DNA from: Utricularia gibba
Lineage: Eukaryota > Streptophyta > Magnoliopsida > Lamiales > Lentibulariaceae
NCBI GenBank assembly: GCA_002189035.1
Contig: CM007990.1
Span: 2,480,001-2,544,000 of the forward strand
Reading direction: 5' to 3'
DNA: 64,000 nt
Shown here: positions 49 to 55,099 of the stretch, one piece after another
Layout: every line of letters starts with the position of its first letter
Position numbering within the stretch: position 1 is the first letter of the stretch
Made by a program: the position numbers and the translations under genes
The notes under the pieces: generated by a model
The model's database searches: none
Told to the model about the DNA's origin: nothing
Seen by the model: only the letters and a program-made list of their open reading frames with translations

Positions 49-2456
49 GTATTGTACAGAAGTCGATGTGATAATCGGCTTAATGAAATAACAGAAAGGG
101 CCAGAGCTGACAAGGCTGAGGTGTGCATGGTTAAAAATGGCATTTACTTCATTGTTGATACTTCCATTTTTTTTTCATGTGAACTTACGGTCTTTCAATT
201 ATGCCGTCAGGCTGAAGCACTAGAAAAGAAGTACCAGGAGAAATATAAGCTAGTTGCAGAGGTTCATTCCAAGTTAACACTTGAAGAGGCTTCGTATCGC
301 GGAATTCAGGTGCAGCTGCAAACCACAGACTCAATCATAGAATTGAACCAATTCTACTGTGTGACTCAAGCAGCTTATGTTATTTCTGGTTTATATGCTA
401 TTTCTCAGGGGTGGTAACTGAATCAATGTGCTTATGATTATGTATGTAGGAGAGGAAGATGGAATTGCATCAGGCAATCATTAGAATAGAACAAGGTGGA
501 AGTGCTGACGGTATCCTTCAGGTGATTTGAACTCTTGTGGCTTACACTTTGGTGCTTTACTTGGGATGACTCACATCACTAAATGTTAGGTTCGTGCTGA
601 TCGTATACAATCAGATCTTGAGGGTCTCTTGAAGGCATTATCAGATCGCTGTAGCAAACATGATTTCCAGATTAAATCATCTGCGCTAATTGAGCTTCCT
701 CAGGTGATTAGATCATGTGTGACCTGTATTATGTGTTATATTTTGCTCCCTTCAGCAAATTTACTTCTACTTCTGCGATGATTCAAAAGATGGCTTTGGC
801 TGAAAGTACCAGTTATTCCAGGACTGTGGTGGTGTGCAATTTTCTCCTTTGAGTGAGGTGTCAGCAATTTATTGAATCTGTAGAACTAGGCGCTGACCTT
901 GATGCATTTTAAACTATTCCTCGTGCTCTTTTCCTGTATTTTAGGAAGCCTGCTCTGCATAATCGTCAATCAGAACAGTGGGATTAATTTAGAAATAATT
1001 GATGATTTAGAACTGGCAATTTGGTCCAGATTCTATTACTCTTTGTTTTGCTCTGAATAGTAAAAAAAGACATCTTTTCTTCTCACTGTGTTTTGTCGCA
1101 ATCTTTGCATTTTGGAGGCTGGGCGCCAGGAGTACCAGAGGCTGCTTTGGTATGGGATGAAGAATGGGATAAGTTTGACGATGAAGGTTTATATCTCCTT
1201 TTGTGGAATTTCTCTCTTCGATTTTTACATATATGCTTCTTTTGTCATTAGGTTTTTCCTTTGATGTTTCCATTCCCGAGAATAGCAAGGATGCATCTTT
1301 CAGTGGGGAGAATTCTTCCCCAGCTCATAGCCTTTCTCCTGATTCTGTGCTGAATGCTGATTCCATGTCTGAGGAACCCTTCAATTCACGGGAGACTGCT
1401 TTCGAGAAAGAATCTATATACAGTGCTGATGATTCTAAGAGTGTCCAAGATGGCATAGGGAGCGTGATGCCACACGAAAGCCCCTCCGATGGGTACACGG
1501 AAGCCCATTTAACAAGGAACTCTATAGATGCTGATACTCACAGGTTTTCTCAACTTCAGTGTGCCACCTTGTGTTATCGTGTTCAGGGTTTATTGTCTCT
1601 TCTTGTTTTCACCTTCTCTTTCCCTTACAGAAGCTTTGATGATTCTACGTGGGGTAACTTCAACAATGATGATGATATTGATTCTGCGTGGGCCTTCAAT
1701 TCTAAGGCATGTTCTTCAACTGCATCTTTTTAAAGTTATCTTCAAACTAGATTATTCCCAAAATTCTCATGTATGGCTTGATGAAAATGAGTTTTTTTAC
1801 CCAAAGTTGATAGTGTTGGTTGACCATAAAAACATCTGAACAAAACACTATCTTAAAAAGATTGGTGATATTGTGTTTTGTGTTAATTTAGTCATTGCGC
1901 TACTGGCATCCATAACCTAATGAATCATGCGACACCATATGTTTGTCAGCATCACCCATATATGCATGTATCTGTGCATATGTTCATTCAGTTGCTTAAG
2001 ATGGCTGACAGCAATTATGATTTCCAGGAATTGGACAATGGGAAACTCGAGGAAAAGCATTTCTTCGGTTCTAGCGTTTTTGCAGCCAGCCCAGAACGAA
2101 CTGATTCCCCTCAGGGAGGTAGTGGATTTCAGAAGAATGACACCTTTTTCTTCGAGGACTCGGTTCCGAATTCTCCACTTTCAAGGGCAGCCAGTTCTCC
2201 ATCACGGGTCAGTATGGAATCGAAGGATCCTTTCTTTGGCAGTTTCTCTGGATACGATTCATTCAGTGTACAGAGCAGTGGATCCCCTCACGGGACAAAT
2301 CTCACAAGGTTTGACTCCGTGAGCAGCACAAGCGGCTTCAATGACAACAGGAAGTACTCTTTTGACGATGCAGATCCATTTGGCTCCAGTGGTCCATTTA
2401 AAGTCTCCTCAGAAACTCCGAAGAATGGTTCTCGATGGGACAGCGGTTCAATGTAG
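49..2456 (+). CDS. EH-domain/EF-hand endocytic protein, C-terminal part (AtEH/Pan1-like, EPS15 family)
   Basis: Only the 3' half is present; the N-terminal EH domains lie left of the window. Exons read from GT-AG signals: 49-120, 211-309, 450-521, 590-703, about 1117-1186, 1252-1543, 1631-1706 and 2028-2456 (stop TAG). The encoded order is a coiled-coil segment (RCDNRLNEITERARADKAE, then a QEKYKLVAEV stretch), an EQGGSADGILQ segment, the acidic-aromatic block WDEEWDKFDDEG, and a long Ser/Asp/Phe-rich tail with FGSS, DPFFGSF and DPFGSSGPF motifs. This matches the C-terminal half of plant EPS15-like AtEH1/2-Pan1 proteins, subunits of the TPLATE endocytic complex at the plasma membrane. The intron after 1706 uses a GC donor. 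The exon beginning near 1117 is one base out of phase with the one before it. Family assignment is firm; which paralogue is not. Confidence 0.88.
1707..2027 (+). other. GC-AG intron in the EH gene
   Basis: The last codon before the intron is AAG and the donor reads AAG|GCATGTT; the acceptor is TTTCCAG|GAA at 2027/2028. Splicing here joins ...AFNSK to ELDNGK in frame. The donor fits the plant GC-AG intron consensus. No usable GT donor at this point keeps the frame. Confidence 0.7.
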
Positions 2457-3487
2457 TTGGAGGCATCATCATCACTTATCTGTTGTGATAGAACCTTCTG
2501 CTCCATGAACTCCTTGGGCAGCCTCGTCGCTCCCACACAAGTTTCATCCCTCCAGCAGATGATGAGAGTCGAATTTGGTTTTTCCCCTTTCTGTCACACA
2601 AGTATGCTACTGTATGATTGGTGTTATTCTTACTGTTCTACTGGGTGTGTATCAAAACACTCTTCTAGTTGTAAGAAAATTGATGCGAACTCATCCCTTT
2701 AATGAATACTGAACTGATGCTTCTGGGAGGCAGTCAGCAGAGCATTGCTCTTGAGGATTTCAGAATGGATGCTATTAAGATAAGTTTTTGTTATGTTGTT
2801 GGGTTTTCGAACAGGGTTATGGGTCACGAAGAATAAGAAAAAGGGGGAAATTCATCTGAATTATCCAGGATGAGAGGAGAAGTTTTTATCTTATTTTTTC
2901 TATCTATGTTGAAAGAAAAAAAAAATCCGTTGATTTTCCAAAAGCTCCCCTATCGTTCGGATGTCTTTCATATAACATTCTTTTGAAAAGACAACATTAC
3001 ATCCTACTTTCAAGTTGGTTGCTTCTTCCTCCTAATGGAGATCTTGTCTTGTAGGCAACCATTGTCTACTCCCTCAAGTGCTGTCGGCTGTGCTGTGCTG
3101 TGCTGTGCTGTGCTGTTATCTCTCCTACTTCCTGCTCAGTGTTCTCCATGTTGTTCCTGGTTGGGGTCAGGATGATGTCGTTACTGTCATGCCCTGTGCT
3201 ATTCATCACAGTTTTCTTGTCGAAAACCTCAACCCGAGCGAGCCACGGAACTGTCAAGTAGCACGTTACATGATGTACTTGGAATGGAGCATGTTGCGTC
3301 AGAGCCAGAATAACCTTCCTCTTTATGTTTGTTTGTCATCATTTCGAGTAAAACAACTGGACAAAACTACTTGAAAAGGAATTACAAAAAAAAACAACTG
3401 TTCATAGAAGCAAGTCCCAATGGAACAAATGTGGTTAACGAACTAAGAAGGAAGGCTCATAAGATAAGTGGTTTGCGGGTGATTCGC
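2457..3487. other. Convergent intergenic spacer with two 3' UTRs
   Basis: No credible coding region. It should hold the 3' UTR of the EH gene from the left and that of the F-box/kelch gene from the right. The GCTGT microsatellite is inside. Confidence 0.6.
3087..3116 (+). repeat. GCTGT pentanucleotide microsatellite (six units)
   Basis: Six exact copies of GCTGT in the short convergent spacer between the EH gene and the F-box gene. Confidence 0.95.
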
Positions 3488-5221
3488 CTACAGATGCAGC
3501 ACCGCCAATGCCTTTGTGATGCAGGAAGATGCGTCTAAATCGTTCGTCACATGCTTTCTCCAGATGTGGTTCCACCCCCTTGAACCCTCAGAAACATTAA
3601 AAACAGTCACAAAGTCCAACACTCGCCCGAAGATCTTGAATATTTCCAGTCCGAAAATAAGCTGTTTGTCAGCAACAAAAGCAGCATTCCAGTCCATGGG
3701 CGCGTCAGGGTGTGTTGAAACTTCCTTCCAGGAAAGGTGCGTAAAATCAAGTTCCCACAACTTCCTCACAGCCTTGTTCCTCCTCCCAATTTGCCCTTCT
3801 CCTTCACACCACAAAACGCAGATCATCAAGAGTCTACCACTGGATGAAATCAGTTTTGGATGGTATTCTTGCACTCTCGGGGAGCTTGGTATCATCTGGA
3901 TCCGGATCCAGTATCCTCTTTGTATGTCATACCCAATGAGCTTGTCAGTTTCCGAGTACACATAGAAGATGCCTCGGCATACCGCAGCAGAACACGGGCG
4001 GCCAAAATCCATAGGTATGCTTTGTATTTCAGTCCATTTGTTTGAAACAGGGTCATAAATTTCACCAGTGTCCAGTGGCTCATCCCAAGCACCCAGACCT
4101 CCAACAACCAGCATGATAAACTTCTTACAATCTTTAACGGATGAGGTTTCAGCTTTCTGCTTCACGAGTTTCAAAGATGGGACAGATGAAACTTCATTTT
4201 CATCAAACGAGTGCCGAGGTTGGCATCTAATTGACAGTCTGTGAGGATCTTCGTAAACATCTGATGCGCCACCAATTCTAGGCCTATAGAGTCTTCTTTC
4301 ACTTTGATTTTTCTGGTTTCTAAAGACAACACAATCCAGATCAACCTCCGCAACTCCCAGAATCGGTGATGACCGAGCATACTTCATGGATGCAACTTTG
4401 CGCCATGACTTAGTCAAAGGACTGAACACAACAACTCCTTTGTGTGTCTTAGATGAGTTTCTATCGACCCTTAAGGTATTGTACAAGCTAGAACAGCCTC
4501 CAACTACATAAATTTCCTCCTGGATGCAGGCAACAGAAAACATAAACCTGCCTTTCAGAGTAGGAGAATCAATAGTGTGCCACTTTTCAAGAGCAACATC
4601 CAACACATGCATTTCTCCAGAGCAATATCCATCCTTAACAGCACCTAAGAGAAATAGCCATGGACTTTGAAATAAACCCTCCCTCCGAACACACATAAAG
4701 CGAGGTGTGGAAGTCAAGTTTCTCCATTTCTTGCAGACTAAACGAGCATTCATTAGGCTTGCGAGAGGAAGCCTCACCAAGCACATTTCGAGAATATCAT
4801 CAGGTAAACGTGCATTGATGGTATCGCTCTCTACAGAACCCTTGTATGTTAATGTCTTCCTGGAATTCCTTTTAAACAACTTGTCCCTCATACCATAGGG
4901 GAAGCAATCAATGGTTGTTCCGATATCTTTTCCACATCCATGTATAAAGCTCTTTCCTTCGTCGCTTGCACCAGATTGACTATTGGCCGGATCGCCAACA
5001 TGTTCTCCCATGTCAGCAACTACTTTGCAGCCTCCACCCCTGCTATAAAGCGGAAGGCAGCGGGAAGAAATATTACTTGCCTCCCTCTCATGAGAACCTT
5101 CACTGATGACTTCCTTTGTTTTCAATTGCTGGCTCATGCTTCTTACAAAACGTTTACACAAACTCACAGACCCAATATCCAAATCATCATTTTCTTCAAA
5201 AACTAATGTTTCACAGACCAT
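3488..5221 (-). CDS. F-box/kelch-repeat protein (At5g42350-like)
   Basis: An uninterrupted single-exon reading frame of 577 codons. I start it at the ATG at 5221-5219 (MVCETLVFEEND). The frame opens ten codons earlier, but only from a GTG. A variable N-terminal region of about 135 residues precedes the F-box (NARLPDDILEMCLVRLPLAS, then LVCKKWRNL). Kelch-type repeats follow, with the hallmarks YVVGGCSSLYN, VVGGLGAWDEPL and EIYDPVSNKWTEI. Proteins of this type join SCF ubiquitin ligases through SKP1 and use the kelch propeller to bind a target; the target here is unknown. Length and lack of introns fit the At5g42350/At5g42360 family. It converges on the EH gene. No break is visible. Confidence 0.9.
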   Translation of the reverse strand: MVCETLVFEENDDLDIGSVSLCKRFVRSMSQQLKTKEVISEGSHEREASNISSRCLPLYSRGGGCKVVADMGEHVGDPANSQSGASDEGKSFIHGCGKDIGTTIDCFPYGMRDKLFKRNSRKTLTYKGSVESDTINARLPDDILEMCLVRLPLASLMNARLVCKKWRNLTSTPRFMCVRREGLFQSPWLFLLGAVKDGYCSGEMHVLDVALEKWHTIDSPTLKGRFMFSVACIQEEIYVVGGCSSLYNTLRVDRNSSKTHKGVVVFSPLTKSWRKVASMKYARSSPILGVAEVDLDCVVFRNQKNQSERRLYRPRIGGASDVYEDPHRLSIRCQPRHSFDENEVSSVPSLKLVKQKAETSSVKDCKKFIMLVVGGLGAWDEPLDTGEIYDPVSNKWTEIQSIPMDFGRPCSAAVCRGIFYVYSETDKLIGYDIQRGYWIRIQMIPSSPRVQEYHPKLISSSGRLLMICVLWCEGEGQIGRRNKAVRKLWELDFTHLSWKEVSTHPDAPMDWNAAFVADKQLIFGLEIFKIFGRVLDFVTVFNVSEGSRGWNHIWRKHVTNDLDASSCITKALAVLHL

Positions 5222-7716: not shown

Positions 7717-8905
7717 TGTTAAGTGTTATTTTCTAGTTGTTTATTAGGTATTATTATGTGTTAATCTAGTATTAAGTCGCCTAATTAGGAATTATATTGA
7801 TAAGTAATTGATTTTCCTAGAAAAATCTTATTTTCCTATTTTGTATATATTTCTCTATCTATTTCGTGCACTTTTGACCGAGACATGCCAAGAGGCAGTT
7901 GTGGAGTGTTGCAGGAGGTCAGACTCTGACTTTTTGTGCCTTGTACGTGACTTGGAAAAATTGTGGGTGAAAGACTGACACTAGTCAAGGCCCCTGACTT
8001 ACGACATGTCAGAGTCTGCAACAATGATTGGGTGCTAACTTGCATGCAAAGGAAAGTTGGTGGCGCACGCAAGACAGAAGGAATGATGGGAAGGGGACCT
8101 AAAGGAGTTAATGCACATGAGAAGTGATATAAAAGCAATTTAGAACACTTATTTTGGGACTTTGAACATTTTTCTCTTGTACTTAAAACTTTTGGGTTCT
8201 TCCTCCCTTCCAAGGAGGAAGAACACTTAGCTTCCATTTGCATTTCTATTTTCATGGCCCTTTTGGGCTAAACTCTTTTAGTTTCTCGGAGTAAATGAAG
8301 TTTCCTTCCAAGTCCTTAGCAATACACTCGGTTCTTCGCTGAATTCATTTAGGATTTCGTATATTTCCACGCATTTTGTTGTAGTCTTTCTGTAACGACT
8401 CCTAGTCAAGGTCCATAATTAGCAGGCCACTCCTAGCGGATTTTAGTCAAGATCAAGGTGAAGATCACCAACTCCAACTCTACCGGTTTGAGGGAAGTAG
8501 CAGATTGTTTGTGGCCGAGGTACCGTGATAGTGGACAGGTAGTGACCTCATGCTTGCCACTGCCCATTGGCAACAACTGGGCACACGCATGCAATTCGGT
8601 TTTAAAGACAATCAACGACAATCCTCTTGTCTTCTTAATTGTCCAAGGGGGAATCACATGAGGCTATTCCCATGCCTCCTGGTCAATCAGAGTGTAAGGG
8701 AGAGTAGGCTATTCCGTGCTCCTATAACTAGCTATTCGGAAGAAATCAATGAAAAGCAAGGCGAGGATAGACAAAGGAAGGAGACGGAATCTCATTCCCA
8801 GGAACTGCACCCCATAGTCAAGGCCCATCACTTAGGTTGTAACTTTTATTTTTGCATTTCACAAACCCCTTTTACATAACCATGACATTTTGTAGAAGTT
8901 TCTTA
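7717..8905 (+). mobile_element. 5' LTR of Athila-like Ty3/gypsy element 1
   Basis: Begins TGTTAAGTGTTATTTTCTAG. It is repeated as a truncated copy at 14215-15000 and in reverse at 37772 down to about 36650. The left edge is sharp because all three copies start with TGTTA(A/G)GTGT. The right edge is approximate: similarity to the reversed copy runs through GACATTTTGTAGAAGTTTC near 8905, and reverse-transcriptase coding sequence starts a few bases later. An antisense ORF inside it is a by-product of the repeat. Confidence 0.8.
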
Positions 8906-8911
8906 GTCATG

Positions 8912-10090
8912 TGCAGGTTGTCTCGAAGAAAACAGATATCATAGTCATGGTCAATGACCAAGGGGAACTCCTGCCTACCAGAGTGTAGAATGGCTGGCGA
9001 ATGTGCGTAGATTACCGAAAACTAAACGCAGCCACCATGAAGGATCACTACCCACTTCCATTCATTGACCAGATGTTGGAAAGACTTGCTGGAAGGAGCC
9101 ACTACTGCTGCTTAGACGGATACTCCGGTTTCCATCAAATACCCGTGGCTCTTGAAGACCAATCTAAGGTTGTTTTCGATTGCCCCTTTGGTACTTTTGC
9201 TTACCATAAAATTCTTTTTGGACTTTGCAACGCACCAGCAACATTTTAGAGATGTAGGTTAGCATTTTTTCTAAATATGTTGAGAATATTATTGAGGTTT
9301 TTATGGATGACTTTACGGTTTATGGAAATAGCTTTGATGAATGCCTTGCTAATTTGTCATTGATCTTGAACTAGAGACTAACCTTGTTTTGAATTATGAG
9401 AAATGTCACTTCATGGTAGAATAAGGTATCATTTTAGGGCATGTCTCCCAAAAGGCAATTGAAGTTGACAAGGCCAAGATTTAGGTAATCCAAAAATTAC
9501 CTTATCCCACTTGTGTCAGAGATGTATGTTCTTTCCTTGCACATGCTGTATTTTATCATAGATTCATTCAAGATTTTTCGAAAATTGCATCTCCTTTGTG
9601 TGCCTTGTTACATAAGGATGTTGAATTTCATTTTGATAGCCATTACATTAATGCTTTTGAAAGAAAAGCTTGTTTCAGCTCCTATTATCCAGGCTCCAAA
9701 TTGGAGTCTACTCTTTGAACTAATGTGTGATGCAAGTGATGTAGCTCTAGGTGCAATTTTGGGAAAAAAGGTGGAGAAACAATCCCATGTTATCCACTAT
9801 GCGTCCAAGTGCCTTGATGATGCCCAAAAGAGCTACACCACTATAGAAAAGGAGCTGCTGGCCATTGTCTTTGCCCTGGAGAAATTTCGATCTTATTTTC
9901 TTGGAGCTTAAGTGATAGTTTATTCGGATCATGCCACATTGAGATATCTCCTCACTAAGAAGGATTTGAAGCCTAGACTTATTAGATGGATTTTATTGCT
10001 TCAAGAGTTCGATTTGGAGATCAAGGACAAGAAAGGATGCGAGAATTTAGTTGCAGACCATCTCAGCCGCATCACTTCTGGCGAAAAATC
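8912..10090 (+). pseudogene. Athila-like pol remnant: reverse transcriptase and RNase H
   Basis: The RT is recognisable from VDYRKLNAATMKDHYPLPF through DGYSGFHQIPV, FGTFAYHKILFGLCNAPATF and a frameshifted FMDDFTVYG box near 9303. The RNase H is at about 9715-10075 (CDASDVALGAILG, HYASKCLDDAQKSYTTIEKE, then [19 protein letters not shown] and VADHLSRI). Several in-frame stops (for example within RVQNGW near 8988 and at 9247 and 9910) and frame changes show it is dead. The stretch starts directly after LTR sequence, so gag, protease and the RT N-terminus have been deleted. This sequence style is that of the Athila branch of Ty3/gypsy. Confidence 0.88.
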
Positions 10091-11430
10091 AAGACTTATC
10101 GATGACAGCTTCCCGGATGAACACCTATTCATGATCCATGACGAGAGTCCCTGGTACGCTGACATCGTAAATTTTTTAGTGACTGGACAGTTTCCTACAG
10201 ATTTCCAGCACTATCAGATGGAGAAAATGAGGAGTAACAGCTTCATCTGGGATGACCCATATCTCTGGAAAATTAGAGTTGATAAGATTATTAGGAGATG
10301 CATCCCCCAAGATGAAGTGCACTCTATTCTTTCCCATTGTTATGAGCTACCTTGCGGTGGACACTTTGATACAAAAGTCACTGCAAAGAACATCTTGGAA
10401 GCTAGATTTTATTGGCCTACAATATTCAAGGATGCCTACCTTCATTGCAAGGCGTGCCCAAATTATCAAAGAGGAGGAAATTTGGAATACAAGGATCAAA
10501 TGCCCCTTCAACTCATTATCATGTGTGAGATTTTTGATGCATGGGGCATTGACTTCATGGTACCATTTCCCCCTCTCAAGGGAAGCTTTATATCCTTCTT
10601 GCTGTAGATTATGTTTCTAAATAGATAGAAGACATTACTTGTGAAAGGGATGATGTCAAAACTGTGGGTAATTTCTTGACTAACATTTTATTTCCTAGGT
10701 TCAGACATCCCAAGATTATAATTTCAGATCGTGGCACCCATTTTGTGAATCATGCGATCAAGATGCTCTTGCTAAATATGGAGTCAACCACCGCCTATCC
10801 ACAGCTAGACATCCCCAAACAAATGGCATGGCGAAAGTGTCAAATAAAGAGGTGAAAAGGATCTTGGAGCGCACCGCGAAGCCAAATAGGCGAGATTGGA
10901 GCTCAAGGCTCACTGATGCAGTATGGGCATACCATGCTGCTTACAAGAATCCCATAGGAATGTCTCCATACCAAATGATCTATGGTGAGGCATGTCATCT
11001 TCCTCTTGAATTACATCACAGGGCATATTGGGCCGTCAATTCATGCAACCTAACTAGTGACCAAGTTGGAGAAAACAGACTTTTAGACCTAAATGAGTTG
11101 GAGGAAATTCGCCTCATTGCCTACACCCACCAGCTCTTGCATAAGGAAAAAGTAAAATGCTTCCATGACAGTAAGTTACATGGGAAGCAATTTTTAGTAG
11201 GTCAAAAAGTTATCTTATTTGATACCACCTTGAAACTCTTTCTCGGTAAATTGCGTTCTAAGTGGCTTGGACCTTATGAAGTTGTGAATGTTTTTCCCTC
11301 TGGTGCTGTTATTATTCGTTCATTTGAAACAGGGAAAAGCATTAAGGTCAATGGAAATCAAGTGAAGCCATTTTATGAGAGATTTCAGCTGCATAATGTG
11401 TGCAGCTTACTTCTAGTCGAGGCTCATTAA
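10091..11430 (+). pseudogene. Athila-like pol remnant: integrase
   Basis: Carries an integrase zinc-binding region with H-H-C-C spacing ([19 protein letters not shown] ... [11 protein letters not shown]), a core with [16 protein letters not shown] and ISDRGTHFVN, and a C-terminal part with NPIGMSPYQMIYGEACHLP and LRSKWLGPYEVVNVFPSGAV. The frame changes near 10600 and 10840, so no functional enzyme can be made. Order and spacing after RNase H are normal for Ty3/gypsy. Confidence 0.88.
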
Positions 11431-11719
11431 CAAGTGTCACAGTCGGCCAAAGACTGTAAATTGGTGCGACATGGGAGACAACCCATGACTTTAATTTCGT
11501 AACCGTCACTTCTTCCTCGTTTTTATCACCCACTACCTCAAGTAACTTTACTTTCACCTACCCCACGCATCCACTTACTTCTTTAACCGTTTCTACACTC
11601 AACCTCCCTTTTATCTTTTGAAATTCTCATTTTACCGATCATTACCCCACTTCGTTGTTGTGACCTACGTTTCAATTCCTCCTTCTCTCGCCCGAAATTC
11701 TCTGATTTTCTGGCCCACC

Positions 11720-13426
11720 ATGTTTGGACGCCCCACATCTCCAATTACACGAAGCGCAAGTGCTGCAAAGGTAGAGACTCGGAAGCACCAACCTGCTACT
11801 GTTGGACCATCCCGATGGACCCAGTGTCGACCGGTAACCTAGCAGAAGCCTCTGTGCCCCCTAAGCATGAGCCATCTCCAGGCACTGCGACTGAGTCTGT
11901 TCCTATTGAGGCCACGCCTTTGACTATTGTGTCTCCGATGCTGTACCTAGAGTGGTACCCAATCGCTGCTATTGCTGTTGTTGCTGCTGATGCATCGGAA
12001 CCTTCAGTGTCCAATTCCCCAGTAGCAATTTCTGCTCTCGAGAGCCCGCAAACCACACAACCAGAAGAAGGTCAAGCAAAAGAAATTCATATCATTCACT
12101 CATCCCTTTCTCCAGTACAGGATAAAGACGCCACTGAAGAGATCACCATCGATGAGGAGGTGGATCTCTGGATTTCTGAAATGGAGCATGTCACTAATGA
12201 AGGGCCATGCCTAGAGTTCCTTCTAGGAGAACAGGATGTAGATGAAGCAACTCAGCCCACACAGCGAGGTAAAGGGTAGTGCGGTTGCACAAAATTCTTG
12301 CGAGACCGACTTTGGAGTCCCTGCCTGGACTCAACTGAAAAATATCGTGAGGTTTTCAGATAAGAATGCCCAACTCCTATTTAATCTCCTCACTTCTAGC
12401 ATAATTTTTTTTGATTTCAAGTTGCATACGCCTACTTTAGTGCATCTAAACTTGCTTGCTGATATTAACCATTTATTTGATGCTTCCCCTAAGTGGCGTA
12501 AATTTTCTGAAATTAGTTTGCCGGTTTATCCCAAACTTGTTTTTGAATTTTATACAACTTTTGTGTTTGAGGATGTGGCTGGCAATCCCCTTGCTGAGGA
12601 CTTGATTTCATTTCGCCTTGGTGGTAAAAATTTTCGCATGTCTATAAATGATTTTAATGTGGCTTTAGGCTATGTTTCTGAATCTGATTTAGCCACTACT
12701 CGTTTCCTCCAAGCATTTTGTGATTATCCTGAGCACTTTGAATGTTGAATGCCTATGCTTCCATGTCTTTCTGTGAGCCCCCCATATTCTGTACACAAAC
12801 TCAAGGCCCATTACTTGAGGGCCCTTGCTCTTTTAATGTTGAACAGGTATCTTGGAGACTATTATAGCGCAACCCGACAAAGCACCAGCATCATTGCCAA
12901 GGTCATTGTATTCTTCCTGTGAGCGATGATGAAGAAGCTCCCCATCAACTTGGATGGTGGATTGCAACTCAAATGCACTCCATTACCACCAAGAATGAGA
13001 GGGTGCACCCCTTTGCTTCTCTCATTACAAAGCTCGCCCAAAATCTCAAAGTGAACCTGGAAAAGCAGACCCCTCAGGTAGATGACCACATTCGTTATCT
13101 AGATTTGGATGACCTGTTCTCTTGCAGCTACTTCAAGGAGGTTGAGGGGAAGGCTGTTTTCGTGCAAGCGGGTACCAAGAGTACCATCACTTCCATGCCC
13201 CCCTCCATTGTGAATCCCTACGAGGCACCAACAAACATTCCTTTGAGCACCGCACAATCAAGCCCCATAAAGCACACTCTTTTGCTAACTATTCAGAGTC
13301 TCCAAGAACAGGTTTTTGCGCTTTCGACAAAGCTGGACACTCTTATGGCTACTGCTTCACACTCTGGAATGCCTATGACTAAGGTACCCTCCGCTGCACT
13401 TGATGATGAGGACATCCTCAAAATTA
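11720..13426 (+). pseudogene. Athila-type third ORF remnant (PF20167-like plant transposon protein)
   Basis: Two long ORF pieces (about 12242-12746 and 12919-13480) with a broken join between. The first holds FSDKNAQLLFNLLTSS, KLHTPTLVHLNLLADI, KLVFEFYTTFVFEDVAGNP and GKNFRMSINDFNVALGYVS. The second has WWIATQMHSITTKNERVHPF and YLDLDDLFSCSYFKEVE. A matching ORF lies in reverse at 38586-39770. The upstream piece (11815-12279) is Pro/Ser/Thr-rich and acidic. Third ORFs of this kind sit between integrase and the 3' LTR in Athila/Tat elements; their role is not known. Confidence 0.75.
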
Positions 13427-13442
13427 AGTGTGGGGGAGGAGT
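13427..13442 (+). other. Internal polypurine tract of the Athila-like family
   Basis: AAGTGTGGGGGAGGAGTTT follows the end of ORF3. The same AAGTGTGGGGGAGGA string sits at the equivalent place in the reversed copy (about 38574-38590). A purine run this far from the LTR may be an extra plus-strand primer or part of the 3' untranslated leader; this role is inferred. Confidence 0.5.
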
Positions 13443-14214
13443 TTATGCTTCTTTTTATTTTCTAATACTTTTTGGGCATTAGGACTTATGTGTTACTGTG
13501 TTGAACTTTTTTCTGATTTCGTGCTTCATGTTTTGTTTTTTTTTCCTTTTGTTTTGTTTGTGAAATATCCCCACTATGCTCCTCAAGTACATTTGCTTCC
13601 ATGAATAAGGCTAGAATTTCTAGGATTGATCATGCTTAGGTTCATAAATTCCTTACTGCTAGGAAAATACTTCAATTATTTTTCCTTCTAAATATTAAGC
13701 TTTTGTTGCATGATTTAGGAAAGACCATACCGTGGCTATGACTACATTTCCATTCCTTGTATATATTATGTTGTGAATAAATTTTTGCTACTTCTATAAT
13801 GACCAGACCGAGATCAAAAAAAAAAAGAGAGAAAATATATTAGGGGTGCCAAAGGTGAGGATGCTTGGCGAAACCGTGGTAACCACCACACAAGAGGTTT
13901 CGTAATCCAAACATTCTTCCCCAAAGCGGGGACCTCTCTCTGAAAAAAAAAGGAGGGAGAGAAGAAAAGGTCTTTAGTCACTATAGTGTGTGCTCTTTGC
14001 TGCTTTTTATCTTGATGATGTTAGTGTATAAGTAGTCATTGGTTAAGTCTTTATCTGATGCATGCAAACTTGAGTGGCCTGCCTTAATTTGATGGAAGGA
14101 TAGGAAAAGAATTGGAGTAAATGCCTACTATAGGATGAACGTGCCTTAGTAATGTATCATGACTTAGGTTATGCCCTTTTTCGTGGACTGCTATGATTTA
14201 AGTGTCGGGGAATA
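13443..14214 (+). mobile_element. 3' untranslated region of Athila-like element 1
   Basis: No coding sequence, but it is strongly similar in reverse to 37773-38573. The best-kept block is 13840-13945, with a near-palindromic GTGGTAACCACCAC and GCGGGGACCTCTCTCT. The last bases before the LTR, GTGTCGGGGAATA, look like a worn polypurine tract. Confidence 0.65.
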
Positions 14215-16943: not shown

Positions 16944-16946
16944 AAT

Positions 16947-39770: not shown

Positions 39771-39784
39771 ATAGGACAGCTTCC

Positions 39785-40385
39785 CAAAAATATGAACATG
39801 TCTGTGACAGATCTTCATGTGTCAAGGCCTTTGACCTTGTCACAATCACTGAAGGCCATAGTCATAAGCTAGGATGGCTATGAGTGTTTGTAGAGAAGTT
39901 TCATTCTTGGTACACCTTTTAGGTACTTGAGAACATGTAGCATAGTAGCAAATTGAAGCTTAGTTGTAGAGCACATATAGTAGACTAAAATTTGTACTAC
40001 ATGTGAGATGTTCAGTCTGGTTAGTGACAAATAGATCAATTTTTCAATCAGTTGTTTATATGATGTCAAGTCTTTAATTTCATATGAGTCTTGTTGACGT
40101 AGTTGATGACTCCTGTCTGGGGATTTTTGACATAGAAAAATCCATTGCCTTGAATAAACAATTTCTACTGCAAGAAAATACTAAGATTGACCGAGATCCT
40201 TCAATATGAATTGAGTTTTTAAGAAGTCAACTAATGATTCTAGTAACTCTTTGGATGAACTACCAATTACAATATCATCAATGTATACTAGCAAGGCAAT
40301 AAAGTCATCATAAGACTTATATGAGGGTAGCCGGATTTTGTGGAAAAGTGCATGCATGCGACCTGTGTTTTGCTCTATCTGCACT
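39785..40385 (-). pseudogene. Copia element 4: C-terminal RT and RNase H start
   Basis: Minus strand. FIALLVYIDDIVIGSSSKEL (40291 down to about 40230) is the Copia RT active-site block with YIDD. LIEKLIYLSLTRLNISHVVQ and TMLHVLKYLKGVPRMKLLY (about 40060-39890) are the usual following region. Frames break between them. The left end meets Athila-like element 3 near 39780. The upstream part of the RT lies beyond a later insertion, at 42240-42636. Confidence 0.82.
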
Positions 40386-40389
40386 AGGA

Positions 40390-42239: not shown

Positions 42240-42636
42240 GCTCCATTGCTTGAGAGATTGTTTGAGACCATATAATGATTTTTAGAGTTAGCATATGAGT
42301 TTCCCACCTCTCCTTGCTCGTCGGTTATGTTGGTAGCTTTTAAGGACCTCCATGTGTATGCATTCGTCCAAATCCCTATTTAGGAAAGCATTATCAATAT
42401 CGAGTTGTCATAGTACCCACGAGTTGGATGTTGCAAGTGCAAAGAAGGTCCTTATGATGCTTTGCAACTAGACTAAAAGTTTCTTCATAGTTAAAGCTAT
42501 GTACTTGGCTTACCCCTCTTGCCACCAACCTGGCTTTTTTTTCTTTTAAAAATATTATCATATAAGAGTTTAATCTTATAGACTCACTTGTAACCAATGA
42601 CATGAGTATCATGAGGTATCTTCATGATTTCCCAAG
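42240..42636 (-). pseudogene. Copia element 4: N-terminal RT
   Basis: Minus strand. Reads WVYKIKL, then KKARLVARGVSQVHSFNYEE (42540 down to about 42481), a decayed AFLNRDLDECIHMEV segment and KSLYGLKQSLKQWS at the very edge. This is the standard start of a Copia reverse transcriptase. It is separated from the integrase side by the chromovirus at 42637-49333 and from the YIDD block by the gypsy LTR at 41151-42239. Confidence 0.82.
42632..42636 (+). repeat. Left target-site duplication of the chromovirus (CCAAG)
   Basis: Exact match to 49334-49338. Confidence 0.92.
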
Positions 42637-43241
42637 TGATGAGCCCCAGGAAGATAATGAAGTGTATTTGAAGAATGATGAGGAGTTTGTCCAAGTGAAC
42701 ACATTAGAAACAAAGATGATTCCACCAAGACCAATGACTAGGAGCAAGACAAAGATGGTTGAAGATACACTTAAGGCTCTACTCAATACCATTGGAATCA
42801 AACATGGGCTTGAAGACATCCCATCAAAAGAGCTTAACTACTTGAAGGTGGATTTACCATAAAGCATTGGGCTTGTTAGACTTTTCTATTTCATTTAGTT
42901 TGGGCTATATAATGTTAGAGCCCAATTCTAGAGTATAAATACTCTAGAGATGTTCTATTTCAAGACTTTTAGTCATTTTTCATATATGTGGTGAGGATTC
43001 TCCTCCTCTTTGAGTGCTTGTACACTCTTAACATATCAAATTTTGAGCTTGTGGCGTTCTAGGATTATCACTTCCAATCACTTCTCTTTTCTGAAGTATG
43101 GCTCCTAATTTTCTTTGTTTCGAAGTCTGGTTGCATGAGATTCATTCTCTTGAGGGTAGACTTGGGTAGGTTACTTTCTAAGCTTCAGAATCATCGCTTG
43201 TTCGTGGGTTGCTAATCTCAATAGATTAGAGGGTCACATCA
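42637..43241 (+). repeat. 5' LTR of the chromovirus
   Basis: TGATGAGCCCC...GGGTCACATCA. The first 225 bases repeat the last codons of the polyprotein, up to the stop at 42859-42861. TATAAATA at 42934-42941 is the likely promoter TATA box. Confidence 0.95.
42934..42941 (+). promoter_or_regulatory. LTR TATA box
   Basis: TATAAATA inside GAGTATAAATACTC, repeated in the 3' LTR at 49026-49033. It lies after the coding part, as expected for the U3/R boundary. Confidence 0.65.
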
Positions 43242-43243
43242 TT

Positions 43244-43255
43244 TGGTATCAGAGC
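43244..43255 (+). other. Primer-binding site for initiator tRNA-Met
   Basis: TGGTATCAGAGC two bases after the 5' LTR matches the complement of the plant initiator tRNA-Met 3' end. Confidence 0.93.
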
Positions 43256-44076
43256 TTTGGGTTCCTTCTCCTTATTATTATCCTGTTCTTGTTTGAGTTC
43301 TTCCATTCTTGCCTATTCAAAAAAAAAAAAAAAAGAAACGTTCAAGCCAAGTCCTTCTTAGTACTTTTGGCTTTAGCACAAAAAAAAAAAAAGGGTTCAC
43401 AGAAAGTTGATTGAAAAGGAGCTCGAAATTGAGTGTCAATTGAATAGCAAGAGCACATTGAATATCATTTTCAAGTGTGTAAGAGGATAAGGAGTGTGAA
43501 GGTGAACATCCATCACCCATCACTATCATCCATTATTGTGTATGTTTTTTTTTGTGACCCATCTCTCTACTTTTCCCATTCCACCAAGCAACAACTTTAT
43601 TGTTGTTTTTCTTATCTTCAATTCCCATCCCCTGTCATTTACGTGTCCCCACCTTTCCATTTGACTATTCTCTTTGTTGATTGTCCATTCCTGTATTTCT
43701 ACAGTTTAGCAAGCAGCACATTTCGTGTGTAGTACTCTATTCTCTGATTTCATATGTTCTTACCTTGTTATCCATCCCTCCTATTTATCTACTCCAACAA
43801 GCAACCAATTTCATTTAAAAACACTTCCCTTTGTGTCCATCATGAGATTATTACCACTGCCACCCTCACCTAACTCCATCATAATATCCTAGTCAATACC
43901 AATCTGGAAGTGATTAGTTCTTAAGGTGCCATGAGGTAAAGCATGATGATGTTATGGAGTGCATCAAGGACTTGAAGTTTGAGGATTGAATGGTAAACCT
44001 TGTGTGTGTTTCTTTATTCTTTTAGTTTAGTCTCTTTTCTTCTTTGCTGCTCGTTTTCTTTTGTCCTGTATTTAGG
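43256..44076 (+). mobile_element. Untranslated leader of the chromovirus
   Basis: About 820 bases between primer site and gag start without a coding frame; two poly-A runs (near 43319 and 43381) are present. Confidence 0.7.
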
Positions 44077-46173
44077 ATGTCAAATTCCAGAAGTGAGCAT
44101 GAAAAGGATGACTCATCGGATGAGAGGTTCACTTTGAAAGCTATGCAACAGGAATTCACAAGATTGCATCGCATTCTGGAAAACATAAATGTCAGGCTTG
44201 ATGAACACGAAAATTCTTTGCAAAATGTTGCAAGAGCACGAAGACAAGATAATTATGCTGCTGGAAGGGGTCGAGGCAGTCAAATGCATCAACGCATCAA
44301 CACTGAACATGACGTAAGTGATCAACGAAGTGCAAGGACTGTTGGAAGAAGAGATCGAATCCTGAATACTGATGAAGAAGATGACTACATTGAACATAGT
44401 GAAAATGATTTTGTACATGGGGATACAAGAAGATTTCGAGATCAGGGAGGTAGGAGAGATGGAGGAAGAATTGGAAAGGATGTTAACAACATCAAGATGA
44501 AGATACCTCAATTTCAAGGAAAGAATGATCCAGATGCATATCTCCAGTGGGAAACAAGAGTAGAACATGTCTTTGATTGTAACAATTTTTCTGAAGAAAA
44601 GAAAATCAGATTGGCCTCCATGGAATTTAGTGACTATGCTGTAATTTGGTGGGATCAATTGGTGGCTAAAAGAAGGATTGACTCTGAAGAACCAATTCAT
44701 ACTTGGGGCGAGATGAAAAGAATTATGAGGAGGCGGTTTGTTCCAAACCATTACCAAAGAGATGTTTATCAACGTTTGCAAAATCTCAAGCAGGGCTCAA
44801 GGCCAGTGGAGGAATATTGGCAGGAAATGGAGATCTTAATGATTAGAGCTCATGTTCATGAAGATAGGGAAGCAACTATGGCTAGGTTTCTTCATGGGAT
44901 GAATAAGGAGATTGCAAATATTGTGGAGCTTCATCACTACATTGAGATGGAGGACATGATTCATATGGCCACAAAAGTTGAGAAACAACTCTCTAACAAG
45001 AGTTTTGCTCGAGATTTCAACAAGAGACCTCCTGGTTCAAGATTTGGAGGCACCAAAGAGTTACTGGAGAGAAATAAGGGGAAGTTATCCACAGAAAACT
45101 TGAAATTCAACATCTCATCAAGTTCCAAGCATGGGGAGCGAATACCACCTCCAAAGGGCACTACAAGGAACATAAAATGTTTCAAATGTTTGGGGCATGG
45201 ACATATTGCTTCTGAATGTCCAAATAAACGAGCAATGGTGATAAGAGGCAATGGAGAAGTGGTTAGTGAAGATGAGGATGATCTGGTGGAGACCGAAGCT
45301 GAATTGAGTGATGAGGATGAATTGCCTGTTTCTGGAGAAGTCTTAGTCACTCTAAGAACACTTAACATTGGAGTGAAGGATAATGATGGGCAAAGGGAAA
45401 ACTTGTTTCAAACACGATGCTTTGTTAATGGGAAAGTTTGTAGCCTGATTATTGATGGAGGTAGTTGCACTAATGTTGCCAGCAACATCTTGGTGGAGAA
45501 ATTGAGACTACCAACCGTGAGGCACCCTAAGCCTTACAATTTGCAGTGGTTCAATGAGGGAAGTGAAGTGAAGGTTACCAAACAAGTGCTTGTGGCGTTT
45601 TCCATAGGGAGATATGAAGATGAAGTCTTATGTGATGTTGTCCCTATGCATGCAAGTCATATTCTTCTTGGGAGGCCTTGGGAATATGATAGAAAAGCAT
45701 TTCATGATGGTTTCAAGAACAGGTATTCCTTCAATCATAATGGACGCTCCATCACACTTGCTCCATTATCTCCAAAGGAGGCACATGAAGATCAAGTCAG
45801 AATCCTGAGTGATGCTAGAGTCCTACATAGTGATAATGGAAAGCACAAGGAGGTCGTTCCTAAGGGAGAAGAGAAGAGTGGAGTGAAAATGAGTGAAAAA
45901 AATATGCGAAAAAGTGGAGAGAAAAGAAGAGATGGGAAGGAATTGAGTGAAAAAAAGGATGAAAATGAGCGCAAAACAGAAAGTGGAAACATAAGAGTTT
46001 TAGAAATTGAGAGACACTTACTTCATGCTAGGCAACCATTCATTCTACTCATGTATAAGGATGAAGTTCCTACTTCCCCTAACCATGCTTCATCCATTCC
46101 ATCTTGTGTTGTGTCTCTCTTACAGGTATATGAAGATATTTTTCCAGAAGAACTTCAAGGCTTACCCCCCTTA
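44077..46173 (+). CDS. Chromovirus gag-protease
   Basis: ATG at 44077 follows TTTAGG. The N-terminus is charged and probably coiled. The capsid region runs [48 protein letters not shown] and [21 protein letters not shown] zinc knuckle, [14 protein letters not shown], lies at about 45178-45219. The protease has [20 protein letters not shown] with DGG in place of DSG (common in this group) and [18 protein letters not shown]. An acidic-basic, low-complexity linker follows. The frame is open until about 46173, where RT coding continues one base out of phase. Gag and pol were therefore probably one long polyprotein. Confidence 0.92.
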
Positions 46174-48954
46174 GAGGGATTGAGCATCAAATTGACCTTG
46201 TCCCTGGAGCACAACTCCCAAACCGACCAGCATACCGAACCAATCCAGAGGAGACGAAGGAAATACAAAAACAAGTTGAGGAATTGGTGTCTAAAGGATT
46301 TGTGCGTGAGAGCATGAGCCCCTGCTCAGTGCCGGTGTTATTGGTTCCAAAGTCGGATGGAACTTGGCGGATGTGTACTGATTGTCGCGCCATCAACAAC
46401 ATCACAATCAAGTATAGACATCCTATCCCTAGACTTGAAGATATGCTTGATGAATTGCATGGTGCTTGTGTTTTTAGTAAGATTGATTTGAGAAGTGGGT
46501 ATCATCAAATTAGAATGAAGGAAGGTGATGAGTGGAAAACTGCTTTTAAAACTAAGTTTGGTTTGTATGAGTGGGTTGTTATGCCTTTTGGGTTAACCAA
46601 TGCTCCTAGCACCTTTATGAGATTGATGAATCACGTTCTTAGGCCTTTTATAGGTAGATTTATTGTTGTTTATTTTGATGATATTCTGATCTATAGTAAG
46701 AGTATTGAGGAACATGTAGAGCATTTGAAAGATGTGTTAGATACTCTTAGAAAAGAGAAGTTGTTTGCTAACATCAAGAAGTGTGTCTTTTGCACAAATA
46801 GTGTCTCTTTTCTTGGATATGTTGTAAGTGATGCAGGAGTAGCTGTGGATGAAGAAAAAGTAAGAGCAATTAAAGAATGGCCAACACCTAAATCAGTGGG
46901 TGAAGTTAGGAGTTTTCATAGTTTAGCAAGTTTCTATAGACGGTTTGTTAGGGACTTCAGCTCTATAGCAGCACCCCTCACCCAGTTGATCAAGAAAAAT
47001 CATGCATTTCATTGGGGAGATGAGCAGGAACATGCTTTCAAACAACTCAAGAATAAGCTTTGCTCAACACCTCTTCTAGCACTTCCAAATTTTTCTGATA
47101 CTTTTGAAATTGAATATGATGCATCAGGTTTAGGCATTGGTGCTGTGTTGATGCAAAATGGACGTCCACTTGCTTATTTTAGTGAGAAGCTTCATGGTGC
47201 CACCCTCAACTATCCAACATATGACAAAGAGTTGTATGCGTTGGTTAGAGCTTTGGAGACATGGCAGCACTACTTGTGGCCTAAGGAGTTCATGATACAC
47301 ACTGATCATGAGTCTCTCAAACATTTGAAGGCTCAAGGAAAGCTGAATAGAAGACATGCTAAGTGGGTGGAATTCATTGACACATTCCCATATGTGATCA
47401 AATACAAGAAAGGTAAGGAGAATGTGGTTGCTGATGCTTTATCTCGAAGGTATACTCTTTTAGCCAATCTTGATGCAAGAATTCTTGGATTTGCTTCCAT
47501 AATTAACTTATACGTTCATAATCACGATTTTGGGGATATTTATAAGGCATGTGAACTTGCTCCATCTGGACTATTCTTCAGGAAAGATGATTTTCTTTAT
47601 AGGAAAGATAGACTGTGCATTCCTTCTTGCTCCATACGTGATTTGATTGTTAGAGAAGCTCATGGTGGGGGACTAATGGGACATTTTGGTGTTAAAAAGA
47701 CTCTTGATACTCTCACCCAACATTTCTTTTGGCCACACATGAGAAGGGATGTTGAAAGAATTTGTTCTAGATGTATCTCTTGTAGGAAGGCTAAATCAAC
47801 CACTACCCCTAATGGTTTGTATACTCCACTCCCTACTCCTTCTCAACCATGGGTGGACATTTCTATGGACTTTTTTTTAGGCTTACCTCGTACCCAAAGG
47901 GGTATAGATTCAATTTTCGTTGTTGTGGACAGGTTTTCAAAGATGGCACACTTTATTCCTTGCTATAAAACTGATGATGCATCTCATGTGGCTGATCTCT
48001 ACTTTAGGAAGTTGTTAGACTTCACGGTATGCCCCTAACTATTGTCTCTGATCGAGATGCAAGGTTTCTGAGTCACTTTTGGAGAGTTCTTTGGAGTAAA
48101 CTTGGCACTAAGCTGTTGTACTCAACATCATGTCACCCTCAAACCAATGGACAAACTGAGGTAACTAATCGCACACTTTCTACCTTACTTAGGATTATGA
48201 TTAAATCAAATCTTAAGACTTGGGAGGAATGTTTGCCACTTGTTGAGTTTGCTTACAATAGAACCATGCATCTCACTACTAAATTATCTCCCTTTGAAGT
48301 GGTTTATGGATTTAATCCTCTTACACCTTTGGATATGTTACCTTTGCCTTGTGATGAGAAAGTTAGTTTAGATGGCAAGAAGAGAGCTGATGCAATCAGA
48401 AGATTGCATGAAAAGGTGAAACAACAGATTGAATGCAACAATGCAAAGTATGCATCAGCAGCAAACAAGGGAGGCGCAAAGTTGTATTTGAACCGGGAGA
48501 TTGGGTTTGGCTTCATCTCAGGAAGGAGAGATTTCCCACCAAGAGGAAGTCAAAACTTCTACCTCGTGGAGATGGCCCTTTCCAAGTTGTTGAGCGCGTG
48601 AATGATAATGCATACAAGCTAGATTTACCAGGTGAGTATTCTGTTCATTCAACTTTCAATGTTGCTGATTTGTCTCTTTTCGACATGGATACAGATTCAG
48701 GGACGAATCTTCCTAAAGAAGGGGGGGATGATGAGCCCCAGGAAGATAATGAAGTGTATTTGAAGAATGATGAGGAGTTTGTCCAAGTGAACACATTAGA
48801 AACAAAGATGATTCCACCAAGACCAATGACTAGGAGCAAGACAAAGATGGTTGAAGATACACTTAAGGCTCTACTCAATACCATTGGAATCAAACATGGG
48901 CTTGAAGACATCCCATCAAAAGAGCTTAACTACTTGAAGGTGGATTTACCATAA
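46174..48954 (+). pseudogene. Chromovirus pol: RT, RNase H and integrase, with frame breaks
   Basis: [53 protein letters not shown] and active site [11 protein letters not shown]. RNase [21 protein letters not shown], then [11 protein letters not shown] and VADALSRRY. Integrase: an HHCC finger ([15 protein letters not shown] ... [11 protein letters not shown]), a core with [23 protein letters not shown] and [13 protein letters not shown], and a C-terminal [20 protein letters not shown]. Frame breaks, each equal to one missing base, lie at about 46173, 48021 and 48469. The C-terminus extends 226 bases into the 3' LTR (stop 48952-48954). No standard chromodomain is visible at the end. All else is well kept. 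Confidence 0.9.
48715..48728 (+). other. Polypurine tract of the chromovirus
   Basis: AAAGAAGGGGGGGA directly abuts the 3' LTR start TGATGAG. It also encodes part of the integrase tail (KEGGD). Confidence 0.92.
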
Positions 48955-49333
48955 AGCATTGGGCTTGTTAGACTTTTCTATTTCATTTAGTTTGGGCTAT
49001 ATAATGTTAGAGCCCAATTCTAGAGTATAAATACTCTAGAGATGTTCTATTTCAAGACTTTTAGTCATTTTTCATATATGTGGTGAGGATTCTCCTCCTC
49101 TTTAAGTGCTTGTACACTCTTAACTTATCAAGCTTTGAGCTTGTGGCGTTCTAGGATTATCACTTCCAATCCCTTCTCTTTTCTGAAGTGTGGCTCCTAA
49201 TTTTCTTTGTTTCGAAGTCTGGTTGCATGAGATTCATTCTCTTGAGGGTAGACTTGGGTAGGTTACTTTCTAAGCTTTAGAATCATCGCTTGTTCGTGGG
49301 TTGCTAATCTTAATAGATTAGAGGGTCACATCA
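48729..49333 (+). repeat. 3' LTR of the chromovirus
   Basis: Aligns base for base over 605 positions with 42637-43241. The first 375 positions are identical; the eight differences all lie in the remaining 230. Confidence 0.95.
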
Positions 49334-49338
49334 CCAAG
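49334..49338 (+). repeat. Right target-site duplication of the chromovirus (CCAAG)
   Basis: Exact match to 42632-42636. Confidence 0.92.
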
Positions 49339-51310: not shown

Positions 51311-53037
51311 GCATTTTGCAATACGAGTTTATATGAAGTGAAAGTTAAGAAAATTGAATCTTAGAAATGTAGAGCATTGATATCGGCATTTTAAAAGAGA
51401 ACCAAAACACATTTTCCATTGTAGAAGTCAAAAAAGGTTGGACTTTTTTTTAGTGTCGCAGCATGTATTTTAATGTATTCAAATCAAATATTATATTAGT
51501 CATTTCATGAACAATGTGGAAAGCTACAAGATTGAGATTGGAAGTAGACTTTTATCACTAGATGATTGAATTGAGGGATAACTCAACAAGGGCATATTTT
51601 GATGCTAAGTTGAAGTGTGAAATATTGTTAAATAATCATATTAAGTTAAAGAATCAATGCAAACTTCCACTCCTCAACATACTTAGTAGAGTGAAGGATG
51701 CATTTGCAGCTTGATTTACCCATAGATGAGATGAAAAACTTTAAGGACTAGTTGTGTGTAATATGTAAACTGATGAAAACCAAAATCGAGTAAAATATAA
51801 AACTTTGAAAACTAATTATCCCAATATATTAGACATTTGGGGATCAATTATACCTAGTATGCAAAACAATGGAGATTAATTGTGTAAGTGGAGATGAAAT
51901 ATGTTTTTTTAAAAAACATTAGTGATTTCTTGCATAATTTTCTCTTTTAGTAAATGAATTGCTTGTAATGTTCTATTCTGTGTTTGATTTTACAGCTTAC
52001 TAATAATTTGTTTCTATATTCATTTCATAATTACATACCCAATGCTTTAATCTAAGTAGTAGCTAGTGATACAAAATTAATTATCCCCCAGGTTTTTGGA
52101 ATGCCATGCCATGCCCTGTGCATATTGAATAAATTGGCAATGTATATTTTTCATATCTATTTCATTTGTAAAATACTTAAGTTTAGTATTATATTTGAAA
52201 TTTACTTATATTTATATTTATGCATTTGTAAAATATCTAAACTTCAAAAATAAATTAATTTTTAAACTTCATTTAATATTTTCAATTATTAGTTTTTTTT
52301 AATTTTAAACAATATTATATGATGAATTAAAAATTTTCATTAGAATTTATTTTTAATTATTACATTGAAGTTTAAATATATAATTAAAAAATATAATTAA
52401 CAGTATTTTGAAATAATATATATTTTTAAAGTGTTACATCAAATATTTATAACAAAAATTAGTTATATTTCAAACTTTAATAATCCTATTATTGTGTTTG
52501 AATAAAAATATAATGGTATGTTATTTTTTTATAATTCATATTTGACATATTTTTTATTACTATTCATTATATTTCTTTTATATTGAATAATTATTAAATA
52601 ATTTTACATTATATAATGTTAATTAATACTAAATTGATTTCATAAAAATAAAATTAAATGGATTAATGAAATATTTTATATTATAAATTTTTAAAAAATA
52701 CTTATGTTATGTATGTAAATGTTATTTGTATCATGTGGGTTCTAGGATTACATCATGCATAACATAAATATTTTTATTATTTATAAATATAAATATATAA
52801 GTTTTAGTATGTATAATGTGAATTAAATTAGTTAACTTACATTTTTTTTCAAAATTAAGATATTTTATTAATATATATATATATATATATATTGAGTTAA
52901 GATGTATCACAAATATTTTTACAAATTCCAGTATTTTATCAATGAGATAAATATATAGGGCCAATTTTCCTGGAATTGAAGTGCTTTCGGGGACATGCCC
53001 TAGAGTTGATGCGACTGCAATTAATTGTTACTGAGTA
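51311..53037. other. AT-rich intergenic DNA
   Basis: May include the lost 5' end of the Copia element. 52130-52960 is extremely AT-rich, with an (AT)n run at about 52870-52892. No coding signal recognised. The last bases before 53038 are the presumed promoter and 5' UTR of the patatin-like gene. Confidence 0.45.
52870..52892 (+). repeat. (AT)n microsatellite
   Basis: About eleven uninterrupted AT units in AT-rich DNA. Confidence 0.9.
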
Positions 53038-55099
53038 ATGTCTCCTGCTAAATCAAATGTTGCGATTGCATTCTCCGCCGTGTCGATGATGGCCTGCGCC
53101 ACCTCTTTCCTGCGGCCCGCCATTGCCTCCTCGAATCGCCGCCAATACCCCCGCCCTCAGAGCGCCCCGACAACCAGCCGTCGGAGAGAAAGTCCTTCAC
53201 CGTTTCCGCGGGGGAGCTCTTTCTGGGTATAGCGGCCCGGATGTTGGGAAAAGCGGCAAAAGTATAGTAAATCAGGAGACGCCTTCCGAGGTGGTGTGGG
53301 AACAAAGGGCTAGGGACATCGAGGCGGAACGGCGACGCGTAGTCGTGACGAGCCCTGGTTTCAGTTTCTCCGCAGCTGGGCTTTTGTTTCCCTATCATCT
53401 TGGGGTGGCGCAATTTCTTTTAGAGAAGGGATATATCAAGGTTCACCCTCTTTTGGTTTTCAATTCTCTTAATTCTTGAATAACATGATTTCCCTGGCGC
53501 TGCGACTCTGTTTCTTACCACCTCCTGGCCTTTGGTGTCAATGCTATGTAATTCATTCAGTGGCAAATCGTTGTTTGGAAGACATAGGAATGAATTTGTT
53601 GCGATGGATGATTTTTGTTGTTTGATTGAGTTTATAATGTTCAGAAAGTGGCGTTGCCTCATATTGAACATAGATGTTGGGAGTTTACTGGTTTATAATG
53701 GTGCAGTGAGTATGTGCAATTGACTTAGTCTGTTAAATTATGGACTTCCCTTTTACTATGTTTTCATGTATACTCTCGCAATATAGTTAGCAAACATATG
53801 GAATCATTGTATTACCGTCTTTCTTAACTTTTGGAATGCCAAAGCTTGTTGCATTCATGTTTGGTTTCTGCCCTTTCTGCATCGTGTGTCTAAGCATTAC
53901 TTAACTCTGTTCTTAGGATAGCACACCACTTGCCGGTTCATCTGCTGGTGCCATTGTTTGTGCAGTGATTGCATCTGGTGCAAGTATGCATGAAGCGCTA
54001 AGATTTACAAAGATATTGGCCCAAGACTGTAGGCTTCAAGGGACTGCATTTCGCCTTGGGGTATATCTCCTACCTGGCCAAGAAAATTTCTTTGAAACTG
54101 CTGATGCTCTTGATAAAGAATTAAGTCATTGAAGTTCCATTTTCTGTTGGTGCACTGTAAGAATATAGGGCAAATGGATTTAACGCGAAGCATCATTAGC
54201 TTGTTCATGTTGTTCACTTAGGCAGTGCTTCGAGAAGTTCTGGATGATTTTTTTCCTGAAGATATTCACATCAGGTCAAATGGGAGAGTTCGCGGTAGGT
54301 GCAGTTACGCTTCTTGGAATGCATTTTGGGTGAAAAAAAATTATTTAACGTGAACCTTCCTTCGTAAAGCTAAATTTAGAAAGAGTATCTCCTGCCTTTG
54401 TGGCAGTTGCTGTGACACAGGTTCTTTGGAGGCCGCGTGGCTTGCTCATCGACCAATTTGATTCGAAGGAAGATTTGATAAATGCAGTGTTCACGTCCTC
54501 ATTTATTCCGGGGTACAATACAAACATTTGTGCTGGGCAGTTACATACTCTCTGAGTTTGCATAAGATACTAAACTCATTGCAACTACAGTTATCTAGCT
54601 CCTAGGCCGGTTACACGTTTCCGGAACAAGATTTGTATCGATGGGGGTTAACACTGTTCATGCCTCCAACCTCTGCAGCAGAAACGGTCTCACTCTTATG
54701 CTAAATGATGTGGATTCTGTTGGATGATTAACATCCTAATATTCTTGGTTATCTCACTGGTTTGTAGGTACGAGTTTGTGCTTTTCCTGCAAGTCGTCTG
54801 GGGATGAAGCAAGTCGGATCAGCCCTGATTGCAACCCAGAGAATCGAGCCACAGTCCGCCAGGTGAACACACCACACACCACCCTTGATGATTTCATTTT
54901 TTTTCCCCCACTTCAACTCCCGACACAACATCCTTTCGCTGAGTTGCAGCTATTTAATTGGGCGCTTGAACCAGCGGCTGATGGTGTCCTTGATATGCTC
55001 TTCGAACTGGGGTATCTTGATGCAGCTGTCTGGGCGCGTGATAACCCGGTTGAAGAAGTTGGAGAAAATGAAGTGAATGAAAGCAGGCAAACGCAATAA
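53038..55099 (+). pseudogene. Patatin-like acyl hydrolase gene (At1g33270-like) with broken frame
   Basis: Exons inferred: 53038-53440, 53917-54060, 54222-54294, 54407-54512, 54591-54686, 54768-54862 and 54950-55099 (TAA). The N-terminus (MMACATSFLRPAIASS) looks like an organelle transit peptide. The patatin domain has SPGFSFSAAGLLFPYHLGVA, the nucleophile motif GSSAG (in TPLAGSSAGAIV), RPRGLLIDQFDSKEDLI and IDGG with the catalytic Asp. The C-terminus is LFNWALEPAADGVLDMLFEL. Splice sites are good and the protein follows a plant single-copy-type family throughout. The frame is lost at about 53150-53190, 53258, 54643-54647 and 54818, each time by one missing base. The second and third breaks are firm. 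Either a recent pseudogene or a real gene with sequence errors. Confidence 0.85.

Follow-up and report, generated by a model that had tools for sequence, protein, structure and literature searches.

Single-base losses that break reading frames in a Utricularia gibba window: probable assembly losses in conserved genes, likelier genuine decay in a retrotransposon

Frame breaks of a single sign in the U. gibba genome would reflect a mixture of two processes that act in the same direction, the loss of bases during assembly and a genuine deletion-biased mutation. We consider it probable that the breaks of a patatin-like gene, together with those of conserved genes elsewhere in the assembly, are mostly assembly losses, and that the breaks of a Ty3/gypsy-type retrotransposon are more likely genuine. 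In the first process, a G or C run would be called one base too short, and such losses would fall in conserved, GC-richer exons; the patatin-like breaks are most likely of this kind. In the second, the small indels of the retrotransposon family are strongly deletion-biased, with one-base losses accumulating with age. The window, i.e. the whole stretch of 64,000 nucleotides that was analysed (G000:C2:2480001-2544000), was considered within the complete assembly of 100.09 Mb and 516 contigs. A first-pass annotation had followed eight frame breaks in this window, read each of them as the loss of one base and attributed them to residual deletion errors of a long-read assembly. The artefact was correctly suspected but was over-extended to the retrotransposon.

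Frame breaks in the window

Among the eight reported breaks, the three in the retrotransposon are exact one-base losses and the four in the patatin-like gene are losses of class -1 (Table 1). The latter are read as -1 modulo 3 only, since no second copy of the gene was found in the assembly, and the use of a paralogue as a template was dropped. The remaining one, in the EH-domain gene, falls where an intron acceptor meets an exon and thus cannot be counted as a break within a single open frame; a distant relative, the only one, was tried as a template and was also dropped as it held no recognisable copy of this exon. An old Athila-like element (window positions 8900-13500) shows what real decay looks like within the window: it holds several stops in frame together with shifts of either class, at least one being of the +1 class. 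The proposal that all breaks are losses therefore depends on choosing recent ones, for which it holds.

Table 1. Positions of the features considered in the window
Feature	Position	Strand	Observation
EH-domain (EPS15-homology-like) gene exon	1100..1190	+	reported break at about 1117 is the exon start at an intron acceptor
Left LTR	42637..43241	+	98.7% identity with the right LTR over 605 bp; CCAAG target-site duplication just 5'
Gag-pol frame, Ty3/gypsy-type retrotransposon	44026..48954	+	four open pieces; Pfam gag, RT, RNase H, integrase zinc binding, Tf2-1-like SH3
Retrotransposon break 1	46160..46175	+	one base short against every aligned relative; f0 to f2 near 46166
Retrotransposon break 2	48000..48012	+	one base short against every aligned relative; f2 to f1 near 48006
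Retrotransposon break 3	48464..48474	+	one base short against every aligned relative; f1 to f0 near 48468
Right LTR	48729..49333	+	CCAAG directly 3'; pol frame extends about 226 bases inside (48729-48954)
Patatin-like gene (53038-55099), exon 1	53038..53440	+	two -1 shifts, at about 53145-53195 and about 53258; three-frame translation f0, f2, f1
Patatin-like exon 2	53917..54060	+	GSSAG motif; open
Patatin-like exon 3	54222..54294	+	open
Patatin-like exon 4	54407..54512	+	open
Patatin-like exon 5	54591..54686	+	-1 shift at about 54640-54650, just 3' of the DGG motif, beside a G5 run; f0 to f2 near 54645
Patatin-like exon 6	54768..54862	+	-1 shift at about 54818; f2 to f1
Patatin-like last exon	54950..55099	+	open up to the stop

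Once joined, the patatin-like exons match positions 31-181 of the Pfam Patatin profile. Their three-frame translation shows four net -1 shifts within about 1.06 kb, has no in-frame stop in any of these exons and is accompanied by plausible splice sites. The first exon is 403 nt long and ends with a phase-0 donor, which is consistent with two net losses. Two of the four break sites stand beside a run of five (a C5 run is found near 53150), and the other two are near runs of at most 3. With a GC content of 51.5%, the patatin-like exons are close to the broken-gene fragments of the survey described below (52.4%), the retrotransposon frame being at 40%; G or C runs of at least 5 follow the same order, with 2.8, 2.9 and 0.6 per kb, respectively. 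Under neutral decay, substitutions, stops and splice damage would be present in proportion to indels, and this is not what the gene displays. Because four losses lie within so short a coding sequence with no in-frame stop and with plausible splice sites, the patatin-like gene is probably falsely broken and would be intact in the living plant.

The two LTRs of the retrotransposon differ by 8 mismatches and no gaps. All 8 are located in the last 230 of the 605 bases, the first 375 being identical, a pattern that suggests conversion or template switching. As for its family, no chromodomain was detected by Pfam in 48433-48954, where the Tf2-1-like SH3 was found, a search that may miss divergent forms, and the name “chromovirus” is unproven. 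In addition, at window position 46011 the window copy shares with L010, its closest relative, the absence of 39 bases that most members of the family have; this common deletion is in frame and marks a subfamily.

Broken genes across the assembly

GRAS, KCS, HSP70, EXO70, UGT, P450 and PTR2 domains were sought assembly-wide and frame splits were scored on the large contigs, a split being defined as an adjacent pair of matches in which the profile continues across a gap too short to hold an intron; for UGT, P450 and PTR2, the scoring relied on match coordinates alone. In these seven families, we found 28 intron-free splits of class -1, three of class +1 and one of class 0, so that 28 of the 31 frame-shifted splits are of the -1 class. 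The scoring method by itself has no preference for this class, since intron-separated exon pairs scored identically gave 44 (+1), 28 (-1) and 30 (0). The tally of coding indel signs that the first-pass annotation had called for is thus in line with its expectation as far as conserved genes are concerned.

Base-by-base inspection of 22 split sites further reduces the number of +1 cases: two of them (C244 and C414) are each explained by two losses. The third (C3:261) is a remnant full of stops. One GRAS candidate (C4:1155) was rejected as a frame break, as a genuine intron (about 64 nt) separates its two parts. The broken HSP70, GRAS, KCS and EXO70 genes show clean -1 splits, the HSP70 and GRAS genes being open on either side of the break. 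Informative splits were few in UGT and P450, and, as a point against the artefact reading, no intron-free split was found among the 92 of 269 P450 candidates that were scored.

The sequence context of the splits points to G and C runs. Indeed, 7 of 20 split sites had a G or C run of 5 bases or longer nearby (1.8% of control positions), and 12 of 20 had one of 4 bases or longer (14% of control positions), while no enrichment of A or T runs was seen at these 20 sites. If the surveyed genes were decaying, about 38 substitutions would accompany each one-base loss, i.e. about two stops per break; hardly any stops besides frame overrun were observed in the intronless broken genes. Altogether, the broken appearance of the surveyed genes most likely comes, for the greater part, from single bases dropped by the long-read assembly, mainly in G or C runs.

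The survey mean is roughly one break per 5-8 kb of conserved exons. The density in the patatin-like gene, four in about 1 kb, far exceeds this value, which counts against its reading as an artefact, as do its two sites near runs of at most 3. Nonetheless, about six surveyed genes have two breaks apiece, so that such clustering is also seen outside the patatin-like gene. We also noted two sites of interest among the surveyed families. An HSP70 gene carries an identical -1 break with matching spacing on a large contig (G000:C304:2235549-2237462) and on a small one (C241:16598-18511), the latter probably being a redundant contig that bears the same error. Moreover, KCS genes and fragments form a tandem cluster at G000:C413:4947230-4997561.

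Indel bias in the retrotransposon family

The window copy was set against about 40 aligned stretches of related copies on large contigs of the same genome; copies were compared piecewise. Across these stretches, we counted 566 private substitutions, 26 private deletions (15 of one base and 11 longer) and 5 insertions, all of one base. The premise that neutral decay should also give insertions is thus weak here. Under the deletion bias of the family, eight losses out of eight are unremarkable (P about 0.25), and the sign of the indels alone is a weak argument because the bias is already present in the retrotransposons.

The losses in the relatives scale with age. One-base losses rise from 0.046 to 0.265 and 0.658 per kb as private divergence increases, while their number per substitution is roughly constant (0.02-0.03), as neutral decay would have it, and young copies have almost none. 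Loss density thus tracks divergence, when an artefact would be independent of age. In a two-term fit, the best estimate of an error floor was 0 and its upper limit 9e-5 per site; this limit may fail to carry over to single-copy sequence as repeats may be polished differently. Since losses rise with age in the relatives without an error floor, we consider that the three breaks of the window copy are more likely genuine mutations of ordinary decay.

It is possible, though unlikely, that assembly errors account for the whole set of eight breaks, those in the retrotransposon and the EH gene included. This would be coherent with the identical sign of the breaks everywhere, with the -1 excess across the assembly and with the location of one of the three retrotransposon breaks in a C6 run, the other two being near runs of at most 3. 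The window copy also has three one-base losses for 40 private substitutions when 1.06 are expected (P about 0.09), and its frame is free of in-frame stops over about 1,600 codons. The latter is unsurprising, as only about 1.6 stops would be expected at its age. On the other hand, the climb of one-base losses with divergence, their near absence from young copies and the small number of long G or C runs in the retrotransposon frame all argue against errors in the element. The attribution to residual long-read deletion errors is therefore retained for the conserved genes and the patatin-like gene, and not for the retrotransposon.

Sources of the breaks and known artefacts

The opposite view, that every break is a genuine mutation and that the patatin-like gene and the retrotransposon died recently in a deletion-biased genome, draws on the imbalance between deletions and insertions in the retrotransposon family. 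We regard it as very unlikely. At 15 one-base losses for 566 private substitutions, the four losses of the patatin-like gene would come with about 150 substitutions, hence with several stops over its 1.06 kb, whereas it shows none; furthermore, clean -1 splits are also present, in G or C runs, in HSP70, GRAS, KCS and EXO70 genes. Finally, it is most improbable that the losses in G or C runs are real in the plant DNA and are tolerated through systematic slippage, ribosomal or transcriptional: while four GRAS genes do break at a common profile position (about 135-141), this position encodes a conserved Gly-Gly-Pro-Pro stretch, hence long G or C runs, other GRAS genes are unbroken there, and relatives of the retrotransposon have unbroken spacing. 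For these reasons, a programmed frameshift was rejected at the common GRAS site, whose stretch is rich in such runs, as well as in the retrotransposon, where the shift is not kept.

The mixture of assembly losses and genuine deletions that we favour resembles two known situations. Residual one-base losses that make genes look broken are a known artefact of long-read assemblies, and frame errors of long reads that pseudogenize genes have been described (PMC12007338). In one PacBio genome, 205 indels persisted after HGAP and Quiver, almost every one of them in a homopolymer of G or C (PMC4832174). The U. gibba genome was assembled with HGAP from 88x PacBio reads, with a contig N50 of 3.4 Mb, according to a review (PMC5793159), and the assembly surveyed here presumably derives from this technology. 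The homopolymer case and the present one share single-base errors, G or C homopolymers and fake frameshifts; they differ in that the published one is bacterial, with about one error per 35 kb at 262x (PMC4832174), whereas breaks here are far denser in the surveyed exons of a plant. The private deletions, of one base or more, whose number grows with divergence are, for their part, similar to the deletion-biased decay of LTR retrotransposons, a process that does not account for the clean -1 splits of conserved genes that are free of other damage.

In a deletion-biased genome, indel sign is no means of distinguishing error from decay; the two can be told apart by run context, by the stops that accompany the breaks and by scaling with age. 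About a quarter of the sampled GRAS genes appear frame-broken in the reference, and these breaks are most likely false. Tallies of pseudogenes, of gene losses and of gene models based on this reference would then be biased, which matters for a miniature plant genome of which gene loss is a central claim.

Contigs C474-C477 do not represent the large contigs. They carry four near-identical copies of the retrotransposon (L026, L027, L028 and L030), on 15-30 kb and, for one of them, on 193 kb; several one-base gaps distinguish these copies, and zero substitutions. Such a pattern is an error signature, and these contigs appear to be poorly polished and perhaps redundant.
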